From Chthoniobacterales bacterium (lineage in GTDB: Bacteria > Verrucomicrobiota > Verrucomicrobiia > Chthoniobacterales > UBA10450): 32,524 bases of DNA. Every line of letters starts with the position of its first letter. Position 1 is the stretch's first letter. Below are positions 11,783-32,524 of the stretch, in pieces. Both the position numbers and the translations under genes were made by a program. The stretch is from positions 2,980 through 35,503 of the forward strand of contig QHBM01000011.1 of assembly GCA_003244145.1 (NCBI GenBank), read 5' to 3'. The notes below the pieces were generated by a model that searched no databases, was not told where the DNA came from, and worked only from the letters and a program-made list of their open reading frames with translations.

Positions 11783-12937
11783 CTACCCTCGCGCCAATGC
11801 GTCGGATTGTTTCACGAAATCGTCGCCGCTCCACTCGCCGTCGGCGGCCACCATCTTCTGCGGCGCTTCGGCGGCTGCGGCTTTCTCGGCGGCTGCCGCC
11901 TTTTCCTTCGCCTTGCGCTCGCCCTGCATGCGCACGAGCTCCGCGTGGGTGGTGAAATAATCGAGGCTCTTGCCTTTGAAATCGGCCAGGGTCTCGAACT
12001 TGTGTTTCTCCATGAAGGCGAGCAGCTCGTCGCACATTCGTTTCACCGACTCGTAGCCGAACTTCATCACGCCGGTGCAGACCTGGGTCGTGTCGGCGCC
12101 GAGCAGGATAAACTGGGCCGCATCGTCGCCGCTTTCGATTCCACCGATGCCGGACAGGCTGCGACCGGGAAACTCGCTCCGGATCATCGTCGCGATTTCC
12201 ATCACCATGCGCAACGCGATCGGCCGCACCGCTTTTCCGGAGTAACCGCCCGGGGTAGTGAATCCCTCGACCGTCGGCTCCGGCCGCAGCGTTTCGAGAT
12301 TCACGCTCATGATGCTGCGGATGGTGTTGATCGCGCTCACGCCCTGGCAGCCGCCGCGGAATGCCGCCCGACTCGGTTCGGCGATGCGAGTCACGTTCGG
12401 CGTCATCTTCGCCCAGACCGGTTTCTTCGCCACCGACATCACCCAGCCGCAGACCTCTTCGACGACCTCCGGATTTTCGCCCATGGCCGCGCCCATTTTT
12501 CGTTCGGGCAATCCGTGTGGGCAGGAGAAATTCAACTCGAACGAATCCACCCCGGCCCCTTCGCAGCGCTCGACGATCTCCGTCCACGCGTCACGATTGT
12601 ATTCTTCCATGATGGACGCGATCAGGACCCCGTCCGGGTGCTGATCCTTGCATTTTTTGAATTCGTCCAGCCAGATGTTAAACGGGCGATCGCTGATCAG
12701 CTCGATGTTTTCCCAGCCGACGATGTCCTTGCGATCGAGCGCATGAAACTTCGCGTAGCGCGGCGCGACGTTGACGACCTTTGAAGAATCGAGGCTGACG
12801 GTCTTCGCGATGACCGCGCCCCAGCCTTCGCGGAAAGCGCGGGTAATGACGTTGAGATTCGTTCCCGGCGGTCCCGATCCGATGACGAATGGATTCGGCA
12901 GGTTCAGGCCATCAACGGTAGTGGCGAGTGTCGGCAT
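11783..12937 (-). CDS. preA: Dihydropyrimidine dehydrogenase, PreA-like catalytic subunit lacking the Fe-S tail
   Basis: A 384-aa FMN enzyme of the dihydroorotate/dihydropyrimidine dehydrogenase family that interconverts uracil/thymine and their dihydro forms. The N-terminus GLNLPNPFVIGSGPPGTN, the active-site loop ELNFSCPHGLPERKMGAA with the catalytic-type cysteine, and the FMN-phosphate region SGIGGIESGDDAAQF are clear. E. coli PreA has two 4Fe-4S clusters at its C-terminus. Here the last ~45 residues are an Ala/Lys/Glu-rich stretch with no cysteine, ending ADGEWSGDDFVKQSD. The electron-supplying partner (PreT-like) is not in the window. GAGGAG upstream supports the ATG. It heads the mmsA-permease-aminotransferase run and is separated from hydC by the defence islet. 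Confidence 0.88.
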   Translation of the reverse strand: MPTLATTVDGLNLPNPFVIGSGPPGTNLNVITRAFREGWGAVIAKTVSLDSSKVVNVAPRYAKFHALDRKDIVGWENIELISDRPFNIWLDEFKKCKDQHPDGVLIASIMEEYNRDAWTEIVERCEGAGVDSFELNFSCPHGLPERKMGAAMGENPEVVEEVCGWVMSVAKKPVWAKMTPNVTRIAEPSRAAFRGGCQGVSAINTIRSIMSVNLETLRPEPTVEGFTTPGGYSGKAVRPIALRMVMEIATMIRSEFPGRSLSGIGGIESGDDAAQFILLGADTTQVCTGVMKFGYESVKRMCDELLAFMEKHKFETLADFKGKSLDYFTTHAELVRMQGERKAKEKAAAAEKAAAAEAPQKMVAADGEWSGDDFVKQSDALARG

Positions 12938-13277
12938 AGTGCTCCTCTTTCTAGTGAACCTTGTTGTTTATTCGATTTGCCCGAGAAACTCGATAAAATT
13001 TTATGGGGCTTCCGGCGCTGTGGGGGCAAGGTGGATCGCGTGCTCCGTCGCGCGATGTTTTTCATTTCGCCGCCGCCACCACTTCATCGAGCGGTCCCGC
13101 GGTCGCGGGACTCGATCCACCGGATCGCTTTGTCGGCCTCGGCATGAGTTTCCCTGTGGGCTATTGGCTCGGCATTGCGCTGCTGTGCGCGAAGGGAAGT
13201 TCCGTCCAGAATGGTCCTACTCTACGTGATCCTGGCCCAGCTTCGTGAACATGCGCCGCTCCGCAATCGCTTAGCGT
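12938..13277. other. Intergenic stretch spanning the islet junction
   Basis: This stretch holds no convincing gene. Bases 12938-13083 are the leader of the preA-like gene, with an AT-rich patch (ATAAAATTTTAT near 12992-13003) that could hold its promoter and an SD close to the gene. Bases 13084-13136 are the left copy of the 53-bp direct repeat. Bases 13137-13277 form the left end of the islet up to the AIPR stop. A plus-strand open frame (13003-13248) crosses the junction and matches nothing I recognise, so I treat it as non-coding. Confidence 0.6.
13084..13136. repeat. 53-bp direct repeat, left copy (duplicate of the hydC 3' end)
   Basis: Identical base for base to 17401-17453, offset 4317. 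The right copy is the last 53 nt of hydC including its stop codon. The repeat contains a near-perfect palindrome, GTCCCGCG-GT-CGCGGGAC (13094-13111). Flanking bases differ at both ends. It is interpreted as an attachment-site-like duplication bounding the defence islet. Confidence 0.85.
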
Positions 13278-14988
13278 TCAGACAGCAGCCGCTATTTGGT
13301 CTGCTGCCTTCTTCTGCTTGAAATAAAGTACGTCCGCGAAATCTGCTCCGGCGTTGCTCAGAGAATCCCGCTCCGCCTTTCGCGCTTTCCTGACAGCTGT
13401 GATCGCCTTGTCTAAAAGGCCGGAAATCTTCGCGCGATTGCCATACGTCAGACCGATTTTCTTCTTCTCCGCAACCTTCTTGAGTGCAAAGAGGATATGA
13501 TAGCTTGCGTACGCGAGCCAAGCTCGCTGCCCCGTGGCATTATGCGCGCGAAACGTTTCAATCTCGTCGAAAAGTTCGAATGGCAGCAATAACTTCTCCG
13601 CGTTCGTTGTTGAGCTAAAGATAGTGTCGTATTTTGCGCCGAAAATGATGCCTTTTCTGTTCTTCGCTTCTAAGGGCATGTCTTCATAAAATGCTAGATA
13701 GACTTGCCCGCACTTCTCCGCATCGACCCTCTTGTCTGCGGGCTTCCCAGCGTGTTGTGCTTTCTTTCGTTCATAGAACAGCCCGAGCGCCTCGAATTCT
13801 CGCTCGAGCGTAATTTGCTCAATATCTATCGAGTGAATATCGCGGGTAGCTACTGGGCTCTGGCTGTTAGTCCGTTCCGCGATTCGTGAACTGAGCTCGC
13901 GGTCCTTTGTCTCATAGATCCGGCAGAGGAGCTCAATCGGGGAAATAGCACCTTGATTCGTAGTGAATGCTTCGAACAGCGCGTGTAAAGTTTGTCCGCC
14001 GTTCACAACCTGAACGTTCTCCAAAGTTATGATGGGACCGCTAGTGTTTGTAGGGTAATCGAGTCGATCACACGTCATCGTCAGCCCATTGTTGAAGTAG
14101 AAGAATTTCGCATTCTCCGAAGAAAGGGCCGTAGCTTTAATGTTCTGATTAACCTTCGGCTTTTGCTTTAGGTAAATGCGAACGTTGTCATCAAAGGCGA
14201 TCTCTTCCAGCTTCGAGGCTGCTAACGCGGTGAGGTCGGTATTTGATGGCTCGCCGCGAAGAGCAGCGTCAGCACAAAGGAGCCGCAAAAATTTGGGACG
14301 CTTCTGCATGCACGATGAGAGCGCGAACGTTGCCGCCTGAAAGCTCGAATAGGTTCTTGTGAATCCCTTTAAATTTTCCATCAATTTTGAATCGGTTTTT
14401 GTCCGCTAGGCGTGCGGCAATACTTGCCTGCGTCTCAATGGTGTATGAGAACGTGCTGAACTCTGCCAGGGTGCTCTTCAGGCGAGCCTCTTCATCTGGG
14501 GCGAAGCCGTCCGTGAGATTCGAGCAAAAATGAACAACAAATTTTGTCGGTCGATCGGCGAGTTCCGCCCAGATTTCGTGCACTTTATCGGTCAGCGCTT
14601 GGTTGGTGTCCCCGAGAAGAGACACGTCTTTCGACAGGACGGCGCGGATGAAGGCCACCACCTTATCGATTTCGGTGGATGGAAAGAACTTTCCAGTCTT
14701 CTCGAACGTAGAGGAATACTTCAGGTTGAAGAAATGGATGGTGGATTGCGACCCATCTGTGTTGATCACAATCGCATCCGTGCCGCGATCATGCCCACCC
14801 GGCTTCCCGCGAGCTTTCTGAAATGAGTTGTCGGTGATCGAGTCCTCGACTTCATCTTCTCGTAAATCTAGAACGAGCGGCAGGAGCACGAATGGGAAGG
14901 CGTCACTAAATTCTGGTAGACCGAAGCTCGCCTTGACGCGCTTAACGTGCTGATGAATGACGGAGAATTTTTGGAAGTTCGCCGGCAT
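13278..14988 (-). pseudogene. AIPR-family abortive phage-resistance protein, one gene split by a frameshift
   Basis: Two overlapping frames together make one ~570-aa AIPR protein (family named for abortive infection phage resistance). The 5' frame (14988 down to 14269) holds the N-terminal domain: LPEFSDAFPFVLLPLVL, EVEDSITD, then GTDAIVIN and HFFNLKYS, which resemble a PD-(D/E)XK-like core. The 3' frame (to 13278) holds the AIPR core: FDDNVRIYL, KFFYFNNGLTMTCDRL and ENVQVVNGGQTLHALFEA. Deleting one base from the A5 run at 14287-14291 joins ALIVHAEASQI to LRLLCADAALRG and DDNVRIYL, giving the expected family sequence. The start overlaps the endonuclease stop as TAATG, so the genes are translationally coupled. 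Sequencing error, decay or phase variation are all possible. Confidence 0.85.
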
Positions 14989-15848
14989 TAGATTACTCGA
15001 GGTAGCCGCTCTCGATACGTCGCGAGAAGCTCCGGTGTTACGTCGTCAGGCTTAACAAGTGTGTAGTGCAATTCGCCGCCACTCGCCATCTTCGGCCCTG
15101 CGGGTGAATTCTCGAAAATGAAGATCGCGATCCGCTCGTCAGCCATGAATTGAGCAGCGATAGCTCGGCAAATCAGGTAGGGAAACTTGCTCGCGCACAG
15201 AGCGAAGTCTTGTTCGATCTGGACAATATTCAGCCGATCACGACCACCTTTCGCTTGCACGGGCAGAACGTAGTGACTGCCATTCTTATCAACACCGACA
15301 TAAAGCTCATCCGTTTCCACTTGTCCGATTTCTTTGATGAATGTGCGAAGGTGGTTCTGGATCGAGTAACACGTAATTCCCGTCGCGATATCAATTATGC
15401 GGTTATAGCGTAGTCTTGCGAGTAACGCCTGCTCGTCGGTCTGCGCGTATTTTTTTACGAGTCCGGGGGTCGAATCCGGGATCAGCGTTTCCGCAATCAG
15501 CGGATTCGGCGCGATGTCAACGCGCGGCGATAAACTGAAGCTGTAGAGTGCCTTTCCTTTCGGCCGGATCAGCCAATGAAAACCTTTCGGCGCCTTAGAA
15601 GCAATCGACGCGGGTAGAGCGACCCGATAACGGAAACTGTAGATAACGTCGCCAATGTTCTTCGGAAGGCGGATCTTCAGTTGTTTCGCAACGCGCTCGA
15701 TCTCGGAGCGATTGAAACCGATTTCCTTAGCGCCAGCGACATAGCGATCGGCGAATATTCGTTCGATGATCTGCACGTACCTATTCGGCACGTCGGCGGC
15801 GGGTTCAACAGTGGCCACAACTTTCGCTATTCCCTCGTTCCTGGCCAA
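14988..15848 (-). CDS. Putative type II restriction endonuclease (PD-(D/E)XK-type)
   Basis: A 286-aa protein encoded directly after a DNA methyltransferase, with a 22-nt overlap. Residues 178-200 read ETDELYVGVDKNGSHYVLPVQAK: acidic residues, then an Asp, then Q-A-K at the end of a strand. This is the pattern of a PD-(D/E)XK nuclease active site with E/Q-x-K in place of the usual ending. GGRDRLNIVQIEQD follows. The N-terminal half (NRYVQIIERIF, helical segments) may bind DNA. Function rests on this motif plus context, since I do not recognise a named enzyme. Cleavage of sites left unmodified by the upstream methyltransferase is the likely role. Confidence 0.72.
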   Translation of the reverse strand: MARNEGIAKVVATVEPAADVPNRYVQIIERIFADRYVAGAKEIGFNRSEIERVAKQLKIRLPKNIGDVIYSFRYRVALPASIASKAPKGFHWLIRPKGKALYSFSLSPRVDIAPNPLIAETLIPDSTPGLVKKYAQTDEQALLARLRYNRIIDIATGITCYSIQNHLRTFIKEIGQVETDELYVGVDKNGSHYVLPVQAKGGRDRLNIVQIEQDFALCASKFPYLICRAIAAQFMADERIAIFIFENSPAGPKMASGGELHYTLVKPDDVTPELLATYRERLPRVI

Positions 15849-17185
15849 CGTAAGACGACGACCTCTTCGCGAAGCTGTTCGCGGGTGGCGGTAGCCAACC
15901 GAGTTCTGAACAAATCAATACTCACGACTTCATAGCCTAACTGCCCAGCAAGCGACGCGAGAATCTGGCCCGTGCGGATCATGATGCGAAGGTACGAAGC
16001 TTGGTCGCCGACGACGTATGCGAGCTGTGCCCCGGGCCGGAGAACCGCACGCAAATCGGCAAAGTGCCGGGCCATACCGCCGAAATAAAGTTTGGTAACC
16101 TTCGCATACAGCCGCTCAAATCCACTGGTTTTCCCCATTTCGATTCGCCTCGCCTCAATCGCTGCGGCGATACGCTGAATCTCCGGGTGATCAGCGACGG
16201 AATGGTGGTCGGTGTCTTCCTTGTAAACGCCACGCGTGTTCGATCGAACCATCGTGCGCTTCAACGCTTGGAGTTCTTTCTTCGACGTGATGAAGCCGAG
16301 CAAGATCGTCTCAAGCCGCGTAGTGCGCGTGTAATCCTTCTCATTCGGATACGGCGGCGACGTAATCACCGTATCGATCGAATGCGGCTGTATGAGCTTC
16401 GCGATGTCTCGCGAATCCGCGTGGTGAACGTGGCTCGGCACATTCGCGCGAGGCTGGAGAAGACGAAGATCATCCGCCGTCTGGTTCACAAGACGCAACC
16501 ATGGAGAAATGACGGGAGCGTCAGCCTTGGCCGGGCCAACGCCCACTTCCGGACCAAAATGAAGATTGCCAATTGAGCTCACAAGCGCCTTCGCCAACGC
16601 AAGCAGAAGGTGAGACTGGCAACGGTCACCGCCGGTTAATCGAATCGCGTCTCGCAGCACCAACGCTTTGTGGAGCGGGAGTGGGCTGATCGAATTCCTC
16701 AGAATCAGATTCTCCAACTCCGGCTGCAACGTACGGAGCTTAGCGCGATCCGGCATTTCCGCGATCAGCGCAGGGGATGGATCGTCAACAATTCGATCCT
16801 TTTCGAGTTCGCGAAGCGCAGCCGCGGCGACACGGCGCCCCGAGTCTTCTAGCTCATTTGGATCGACGGCCCAGTCAATCTTGGTCGAACTCGCGAAATG
16901 CGAGAGCGGGTGCGCTTCGACGCCAACGCTGCTAATGCCCAGTTTCTTACACTCGACGACCGTTGTGCCGGTTCCGCAAAACGGATCGAGCACCTGTTGC
17001 CCAGCAGGCGCTGGGAGGCGTTTCAGGTAGTCGCGCACCAAGTGCGGCGGGTACGAAAGAACAAAGCGATACCAATCGTGTGCGGCACGATCGTCATTGC
17101 CCAGCTTGTTCGCATCTGCGGAAATTCTACGCTTCGGCGCCGCAGAGGAGGTCGCGATTTCTTCGGCTGGAAATGCGTGAGCCAT
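15827..17185 (-). CDS. DNA methyltransferase (amino-methyltransferase, probable N4-cytosine or N6-adenine)
   Basis: A 452-aa S-adenosylmethionine-dependent DNA methyltransferase. Motif I LDPFCGTGTTVVE is at residues 66-78, followed by GVEAHPLS (motif II). The catalytic motif IV VITSPPYPNEKDYTRT is at about 273-288. TSPPY is more usual in N4-cytosine than N6-adenine enzymes, but both use it. Motif I precedes motif IV, with a ~200-residue insert that probably recognises DNA. YVVGDQASY near the C-terminus is also common in this group. It is the first gene of the three-gene islet operon and should protect host DNA against the next gene. No clear Shine-Dalgarno is seen. Confidence 0.88.
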   Translation of the reverse strand: MAHAFPAEEIATSSAAPKRRISADANKLGNDDRAAHDWYRFVLSYPPHLVRDYLKRLPAPAGQQVLDPFCGTGTTVVECKKLGISSVGVEAHPLSHFASSTKIDWAVDPNELEDSGRRVAAAALRELEKDRIVDDPSPALIAEMPDRAKLRTLQPELENLILRNSISPLPLHKALVLRDAIRLTGGDRCQSHLLLALAKALVSSIGNLHFGPEVGVGPAKADAPVISPWLRLVNQTADDLRLLQPRANVPSHVHHADSRDIAKLIQPHSIDTVITSPPYPNEKDYTRTTRLETILLGFITSKKELQALKRTMVRSNTRGVYKEDTDHHSVADHPEIQRIAAAIEARRIEMGKTSGFERLYAKVTKLYFGGMARHFADLRAVLRPGAQLAYVVGDQASYLRIMIRTGQILASLAGQLGYEVVSIDLFRTRLATATREQLREEVVVLRWPGTRE

Positions 17186-17400
17186 TGCGAAGATGATTAC
17201 CAGAAGATCGGCTCAACGCGAACCGAAATGACGGCAGAAAGCGCTCGTCTCCGCATCTCTCTGCGTTCGGACGGCGACCGAACGTCTTCTGCAGCAGTCG
17301 CAGATCGCTCGGGTGCGCGAGTTTTTCTCGCGTCGAATCGGTCGATTTCTTCTTCAGCGCGCCGTGGCGAAGGTGGTCCGCACCGTCGTGGCGTAGCGCC
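17186..17400. other. Upstream region of the islet operon
   Basis: A 215-bp non-coding stretch between the methyltransferase start and the right 53-bp repeat. It must hold the islet promoter (minus strand), but no strong sigma-70-like boxes stand out. I see no convincing small gene or controller (C-protein) gene, which some type II systems carry here. Confidence 0.5.
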
Positions 17401-17453
17401 TCATCGAGCGGTCCCGCGGTCGCGGGACTCGATCCACCGGATCGCTTTGTCGG
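17401..17453. repeat. 53-bp direct repeat, right copy (hydC 3' end)
   Basis: The last 53 nt of hydC, coding AIRWIESRDRGTAR and stop on the minus strand. It is identical to 13084-13136 and carries the same palindrome at 17411-17428. Confidence 0.85.
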
Positions 17454-31232: not shown

Positions 31233-32378
31233 TTAAGCCGCAAGCTTCTGCGTCGCCGCCCGTCTAAAGCTGACCTTGAGCGCCGCTGCCGCGCTATGCT
31301 CGCGCCGCAAGTGCCCATAAGTCCGCATTGCCAAAGCGCCGCCGTCTTTGTGATTCAACCAGCGCGAGACGGTCGGAATGTCCACGCCTGATTCAATCGC
31401 GGTCGTGGCGAACAGATGCCGCAGGTCGTGGTGTGTGATGCGGGGCGTTCCGACTTTTTTGCAAGCATTGGCGAGCGCTTTTTGTGCTTCACGGACGCGG
31501 AAGACTTTTTCAGACTCTGATTCGTCGGCGCGCTCCGAACGCATCCGTGAAAATAGCTCCCGTGCGTCTGGTGTCATCGGGAGGCGGTGCACGCTCCAAT
31601 TTTTCGTCGCTGTCTCAGCGTCGCCCCGCACGATAATTTCGCCGCCCTCAAAATCCAGGTCGTGCCATTCGATCTCGTTCGCTTCGCCTTTCCGCATTCC
31701 TGTGAACGCGAGTCCCTCGACAAAATCCGCAACATCGCGGGAGCACCATGCGCCTGCGCTGCGAATGGCATTGACCACTTTTTCAAATTGCGCGGCGCTC
31801 GGCAGCACAAGTTGTTTTTGCCGGACGGGAACGCGCTCCAATTTCTCGGCTGGATTAGAATAAATCAGCGCCGCCTCTTTCGCCACTTCAAGCACATGTC
31901 GCAGTCCCGCAATCGTGTTGTTGTAGCGGGTCGGGGAGGCGATAACGGAAAATCCCTGTGCCCATTGCTTGCATTCATACACGGCAATTCGCCTCACATC
32001 GCGCTCTGGCAGGTCCGGCCAGTTTTTCAGGAGCGCCCTGAATACCTGTTTCCAATAGTGAACCGTGCTCGGCTTCGTCCGCTTTGCCTGAACGTCATTC
32101 GCCAGCTTTTCCAGGTGAACAGCGAGCGCATCGGCAAACGTCATTTTTCCGCGCAGGAGCGCGGCTGAATTTGCGTTGTGCTCACGCTGAGTTTTCTTGA
32201 AGTCGGCAAGCTTGGATTCCGCAACTTTGAAGTTGGCGGTCTTTAATGCCTGCCAAATCTGTTTCCCATCCCGAGTGATACGCGCATAATAGAGACCGGA
32301 TTTATGACGCAGGAGATTTGGAATGGGTGTTTTTCGCCACGTTTTCACAGCCTTGCCATCGCTTGCTTTTGCCTTCAT
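31233..32378 (-). CDS. Tyrosine recombinase / integrase of the tRNA element
   Basis: About 381 aa. The N-terminal part binds arm and core sites (SGLYYARITRDGKQIWQAL, a SAM-like segment at MTFADALAVHLEKL). The catalytic domain has Arg in FTGMRKGEANEIEW, a Lys in ATKNWSVHRLP, His-x-x-Arg in THHDLRHLFAT, a His in WLNHKDGG and the Tyr nucleophile in RTYGHLRREH. All catalytic residues are present, so it should be active. ATG 32378 (MKAKASDGK) is preferred; the frame extends to ATG 32444, seven bases before the tRNA, but those residues are not integrase-like. It lies at the right att site and reads into the element. Confidence 0.9.
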   Translation of the reverse strand: MKAKASDGKAVKTWRKTPIPNLLRHKSGLYYARITRDGKQIWQALKTANFKVAESKLADFKKTQREHNANSAALLRGKMTFADALAVHLEKLANDVQAKRTKPSTVHYWKQVFRALLKNWPDLPERDVRRIAVYECKQWAQGFSVIASPTRYNNTIAGLRHVLEVAKEAALIYSNPAEKLERVPVRQKQLVLPSAAQFEKVVNAIRSAGAWCSRDVADFVEGLAFTGMRKGEANEIEWHDLDFEGGEIIVRGDAETATKNWSVHRLPMTPDARELFSRMRSERADESESEKVFRVREAQKALANACKKVGTPRITHHDLRHLFATTAIESGVDIPTVSRWLNHKDGGALAMRTYGHLRREHSAAAALKVSFRRAATQKLAA

Positions 32379-32450
32379 TCCGCAAGTGTAGAACAGACAT
32401 GTGAAATTGGCAATGAATATCCTTTTTGCCGCGTCATTTACCATCGTAAT

Positions 32451-32524
<74 letters not shown>

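Follow-up and report, generated by a model that had tools for sequence, protein, structure and literature searches.

Integrative elements with a tyrosine recombinase are found at tRNA genes or at the 3′ ends of other genes. For restriction-modification (R-M) systems, genome comparisons treated in three reports (PMC3874152, PMC3031569, PMC1643837) describe insertions that duplicate a long target stretch of variable length, on the order of 100 bp. Papers citing the original work trace such movement of R-M clusters to Helicobacter pylori (Nobusato et al. 2000) and also to Furuta et al. 2010, and for one long-duplication insertion in Helicobacter a further report considers site-specificity possible (PMC4978471). 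In homology-facilitated illegitimate recombination, as described in PMC3240628, one end can be joined through homology and the other illegitimately during transformation or conjugation. This type of movement has been known since 2000, and what is new in the present work is a clear example with unusual scars at its edges.

The window, by which we mean the whole stretch of 32,524 nucleotides that was analysed, comes from a soil verrucomicrobial genome and carries a small anti-phage R-M cluster between two genes of pyrimidine breakdown, hydC and preA. This islet at the hydC-preA junction is a real, well-delimited insertion of the previously described type. The features of the locus, with their positions in the window, are the following.

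11783-12937, minus strand: preA, a dihydropyrimidine dehydrogenase subunit (NF006183, 2.9e-116)
13030-13121, no strand: REPIN-like pair of inverted palindromes, the first in the spacer (13030-13057) and the second inside the left repeat copy (13084-13121, corresponding to the final 38 nt of hydC)
13084-13136, minus strand: left repeat copy, an extra hydC 3′ end that runs on into the native hydC-preA spacer
13132-13217, plus strand: gene X relic, from the 3′ part of that gene and matching G033 at 91% over 87 nt, with its first 5 nt (GTCGG) inside the repeat
13278-14384, minus strand: C-terminal part of an AIPR/AbiU-like gene with the AIPR domain (Pfam PF10592, 2.2e-41; PADLOC AbiU, 4.7e-47)
14269-14988, minus strand: probably the N-terminal portion of the AIPR gene, read in a different frame, with no family match of its own
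14988-15848, minus strand: type II restriction endonuclease (PADLOC REase_II PDLC03404, 2e-102; no Pfam match)
15827-17185, minus strand: type II DNA methyltransferase of the N6/N4 type (PADLOC MTase_II, 3.3e-38; Pfam PF01555, 4.1e-11)
17274-17360, minus strand: relic of a korB-like 3′ end beside the right repeat copy, 29 codons at 76% amino-acid identity
17401-17453, minus strand: right repeat copy, the last 53 nt of hydC including the stop codon
17401-18687, minus strand: hydC, a hydantoinase/carbamoylase-family amidase, intact ORF (TIGR01879, 6e-85)

As originally predicted, a perfect 53-bp direct repeat (13084-13136 and 17401-17453) surrounds the islet; its right copy is exactly the end of hydC with the stop codon, and its left copy stands in front of preA, whose start (12937) lies 146 nt further downstream. 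By simple arithmetic, the chance of a perfect 53-mer in 32.5 kb is of the order of 1e-23. The bracketed 4.26 kb are lower in GC: their 1-kb bins range over 0.505-0.577 and the two bins to either side over 0.58-0.61, a difference to be read beside the fall of such bins to 0.53-0.55 elsewhere in the window. No inverted repeat of at least 18 nt joins the two islet ends. Beyond these two sites, the draft of the own genome (3.63 Mb, 173 contigs, 88% complete) has the 53-mer nowhere in full, so it is not a genome-wide dispersed repeat; the next-best match covers 33 nt at 88% identity in contig C65.

The four main ORFs of the islet share their direction with hydC and preA. The cluster had been described as a three-gene methyltransferase/endonuclease/AIPR operon, and the gene types hold, but the AIPR gene is split over two frames, so that the islet consists of four main ORFs and not of three intact genes. 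The ORF at 14269-14988 is probably the front of this gene, the split being either a true lesion or an error of the draft genome. The predicted lack of a recombinase was confirmed for the four main ORFs, the ones scanned, which gave no match to recombinase families in Pfam or PADLOC. The R-M unit is presumably active. At the contig end, about 14 kb from the islet, the window contains a tyrosine recombinase gene (31233-32444; Phage_integrase, 3.8e-19) and, 7 nt from it, a tRNA-Met that ends exactly where the contig ends (region 31233-32524); the two possibly form the border of a tRNA-borne element.

The endonuclease is present in 14 of the 387 sampled genomes of the phylum, the own genome included. 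In the stretches examined around the 13 other endonuclease loci, the methyltransferase was present in G220 only and no AIPR gene was detected at E 1e-3; the whole islet was not found elsewhere in the 387 genomes. At 12 of these 13 distant loci the surroundings were checked up to 4.5 kb on each side, and no exact flanking repeat of at least 15 nt was seen. Plasmid relatives of the endonuclease, all below 60% identity, occur in 64 of 72,556 records, and in one of these the relative adjoins a cytosine methyltransferase. A viral source was considered and discarded: the last 38 nt of hydC had no exact match in viral_contigs, and the endonuclease had none in phages. Among solved structures, there was no relative of the endonuclease, and only weak matches for the methyltransferase.

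We compared the locus with genomes of relatives, of which the named ones are Spartobacteria/Chthoniobacterales drafts. A search of 58 genomes returned hydC in 22, that is, in 21 besides the own genome. At 8 of these 21 loci (G007, G004, G032, G013, G055, G054, G017 and G051), preA lies directly 3′ of hydC (within 1.5 kb) in the same direction, and the remaining loci have other neighbours, contig ends, preA on the opposite side (G056) or other cargo (G006). Starting from preA, 7 among the best 80 of 97 loci have hydC directly upstream in the same direction and without cargo. Five of the seven were taken to be assemblies already counted; adding the other two, L186 and L184 (the latter probably a neighbouring contig of G020), gives ten cargo-free loci, in which the gap between hydC and preA measures about 46-201 nt. 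A direct check found a single hydC tail at all ten and never both copies; in the 400 nt following hydC, exact repeats of the hydC end reached at most 10 nt. More widely, 20 of 83 family genomes contain a hydC-tail match, and two at one locus occur in the own genome only; G020 was set aside, as its two matches sit on contig ends that have the same sequence. Beyond the hydC stop codon, the spacers of G007 and G004 align with the sequence that follows the left repeat copy of the window. Taken together, the single tail at the cargo-free loci and this spacer alignment show that the islet and one repeat copy were gained.

Both edges of the islet hold further DNA. A remnant of gene X of about 80 nt adjoins the left repeat copy, and whole ORFs of this gene (291 and 299 aa) are present in G033 and G009. 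In G005 (L051:9702-10585) a gene X relic lies 3.3 kb downstream of hydC together with the palindrome sub-type of the repeat; preA was not found in that genome. The relic beside the right repeat copy derives from a korB-like gene, which we take from its sequence to be the beta subunit of a 2-oxoacid oxidoreductase, and whose own copy is in contig C43. At its edges the islet therefore carries pieces of two unrelated chromosomal genes from the same bacterial family, which sets it apart from an element excised at fixed att sites. At the junction between gene X and the repeat, 5 bp (GTCGG) are common to hydC and both whole gene X homologues. Microhomology was read at this junction only, with the homologues standing in for the donor; a shared run of at least 5 is seen at randomly paired positions of the window with P 0.0066.

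We consider it probable that the R-M unit was inserted without a recombinase and with a long target duplication, by template switching or homology-facilitated illegitimate recombination. The insertion itself, its single-copy empty state, the exact duplication, the relics at both edges and the 5 bp shared at one junction can be read directly from the sequences compared, as can the lack of a recombinase among the four main ORFs of the islet. The route, whichever of the two it was, and linear incoming DNA would complete the picture as follows. The unit of methyltransferase, endonuclease and AIPR-like gene would have entered the hydC-preA junction without a dedicated recombinase; copying or joining would have left the target at the hydC stop codon, traversed the islet and re-entered the target at a point 53 bp upstream, in the 5-bp microhomology with the islet edge. 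An exit at the stop codon followed by a return 53 bp upstream would duplicate the hydC 3′ end and leave the gene intact. The edge relics and the microhomology, together with the absence of a recombinase from the four main ORFs, of a repeat around the other cargo at this junction (G006) and of exact flanking repeats of at least 15 nt at the 12 distant loci, fit an insertion of this kind better than an att-site crossover, and the unusual target, hydC, is accounted for without site-specific integration. Several points count against our explanation. Microhomology was read at one of the two junctions, with stand-ins for the donor; the repeat terminates exactly at the hydC stop codon, and att sites often coincide with gene ends; a donor locus carrying this islet did not turn up in the 387 sampled genomes of the phylum; and the distant endonuclease relatives likewise lack long duplications.

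The same junction holds a second cargo in G006, a genome of the same genus. There, a distance of 4.1 kb between hydC and preA is taken up by an unrelated R-M cargo (L049:1466-6574), in which a type IIG R-M gene (PADLOC PDLC03631; Pfam Type_ISP_C) is accompanied by a gene with a PIN domain. Different cargo at the same boundary had been proposed as a check of the repeat; such cargo exists, but it is not bracketed by the repeat, and no direct repeat of at least 16 nt joins the ends of the insert. The hydC of G006 is frame-disrupted. An R-M unit thus occupies 2 of the 12 co-directional hydC-preA junctions examined, and one of these two is the window from which the search set out. That one junction should hold two R-M cargoes unrelated to each other hints at a site preference and is a further point against our explanation, as is the Helicobacter insertion described as possibly site-specific (PMC4978471).

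The palindrome that had been predicted within the repeat is present. Its interpretation as a strong RNA hairpin was dropped, the value obtained (z -1.35) not being exceptional. A REP-like palindrome makes up the final 38 nt of hydC, and when the 53-mer was considered as a dispersed repeat, only the palindromic core was found again. The pairing of inverted palindromes formed by the spacer and the left repeat copy also exists in contigs C9 and C44. A pattern derived from G007 and the spacer, with up to 3 mismatches, has 6 matches in the own genome, the spacer of the window included, and its reversed control has 0; a looser core pattern matched at 14 places and its control at 5. The repeat itself holds a sub-type with a different centre, which occurs elsewhere only in C65 and G005 among 288 loci searched. 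At hydC of G007 and G004 the other sub-type is present, and the duplication therefore probably followed a change of sub-type.

Could another process have produced the same arrangement? Site-specific integration at the hydC 3′ end, as the original prediction had it, would make the 53-bp unit an att core and would call for a recombinase that acted in trans or has since been lost. The precise stop of the repeat at the stop codon, the intact hydC and the palindrome inside the repeat agree with this, and a tyrosine recombinase gene is available about 14 kb away. That recombinase, however, adjoins tRNA-Met, which would be a likelier att site; none of the four main ORFs of the islet matches one; the cargo of G006 lacks the repeat, and the 12 distant endonuclease loci lack exact flanking repeats of at least 15 nt; and, of the 83 family genomes, 20 have a hydC-tail match and only the own one a duplicated tail, G020 set aside. 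We accordingly regard this route as unlikely. Of the earlier claim the insertion and the intact hydC stand, and the site-specificity is not established. A somewhat better, still minor, chance goes to a donor of the same species that already carried hydC and the islet, one end then being joined by homology in hydC and the other illegitimately. This is a form of our preferred explanation, and its likelihood is contained in that of the latter. It gives an identical structure, such recombination has been described (PMC3240628), and the two copies are identical in a palindrome sub-type absent from hydC in G007 and G004; against it, no donor with hydC and the islet was found, and it merely moves the first insertion back.

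That a REP-associated (Y1) transposase mobilised the islet by way of the REP-like palindrome has some appeal because the hydC tail forms half of a REPIN-like pair, palindromes related to it recur (6 against 0 in the control) and Y1 transposases (Y1_Tnp) were present in all six genomes searched, in a family test that is blind to REP-associated versus other types. REP/REPIN-type elements measure about 100 bp and are not known to carry a 4-kb cargo, and the repeat extends beyond the palindrome by 15 nt of hydC sequence; this is the least probable of the readings considered. Hardly better is the chance of an assembly artefact, in which the repeat would falsely join an islet from elsewhere to the hydC-preA locus. 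The draft is fragmented (173 contigs, 88% complete), and a perfect repeat at a junction is a classic sign of such errors. Nevertheless, the islet edges hold further, non-repeat DNA of family origin, the main ORFs all point in the operon direction, and the 53-bp unit is at no other site of the draft that could cause a false join.

The korB relic led us to gene tails of this kind elsewhere. A korB-tail match occurs in 44 of 83 family genomes and more than one in 12; some of the extra tails adjoin R-M fragments and others, as judged by eye, small genes resembling toxin-antitoxin pairs. In G000 and G004, the korB 3′ end (62 codons) is duplicated about 40 nt after korB (L118:4667-4852 and L119:4023-4208); each extra tail has 92% amino-acid identity to the reference korB, and the two tails of G000 agree at 72% in nucleotides. 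G021, which has two korB genes, contains at L095:4985-8414 korB 3′ fragments away from korB, near fragments matching type II methyltransferase and endonuclease models, and between ilvA-like and ahcY-like genes by eye. In the same genome (L120:437-2378) a hydC end is followed after about 0.85 kb by a degraded korB with two 3′ ends and then by helicase-like genes, again by eye. The extra tails of G001 and G002 lie beyond the transporter gene adjoining korB, and in G031 a korB tail and that transporter are on a different contig from korB; given these positions, part of the extra tails may be relics of korAB relocation. One could speculate that in this bacterial family the 3′ ends of core metabolic genes (hydC, korB) serve as recurrent landing and take-off points for R-M, and perhaps toxin-antitoxin, modules that move without a recombinase, with stop-codon-anchored tails tagging their earlier homes. 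We hold this generalization to be doubtful; if it were true, the travel history of R-M modules would be legible from gene-tail relics.

It is a long-standing question how defence modules that lack a recombinase spread. At the hydC-preA junction one can read the empty site, the duplicated target, the relics of two genes and one microhomology junction, and these scars, together with the second, unrelated R-M unit at the same junction in a sister species (G006), make recombinase-free movement with long duplications testable outside Helicobacter. With the R-M insertions described there, the hydC-preA islet shares the R-M cargo, the long target repeat, the single-copy empty allele and the finding of no recombinase; it differs in its Chthoniobacterales/Spartobacteria-type host, in its target, a hydC 3′ end with a REP-like palindrome, and in its two relics of gene 3′ ends. 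Like the integrative elements with a tyrosine recombinase, it duplicates a gene 3′ end and leaves the target gene intact, whereas no integrase was found in the islet and other cargo occurs at the site without a repeat. With homology-facilitated illegitimate recombination it may share one homology-anchored side and one illegitimate joint.
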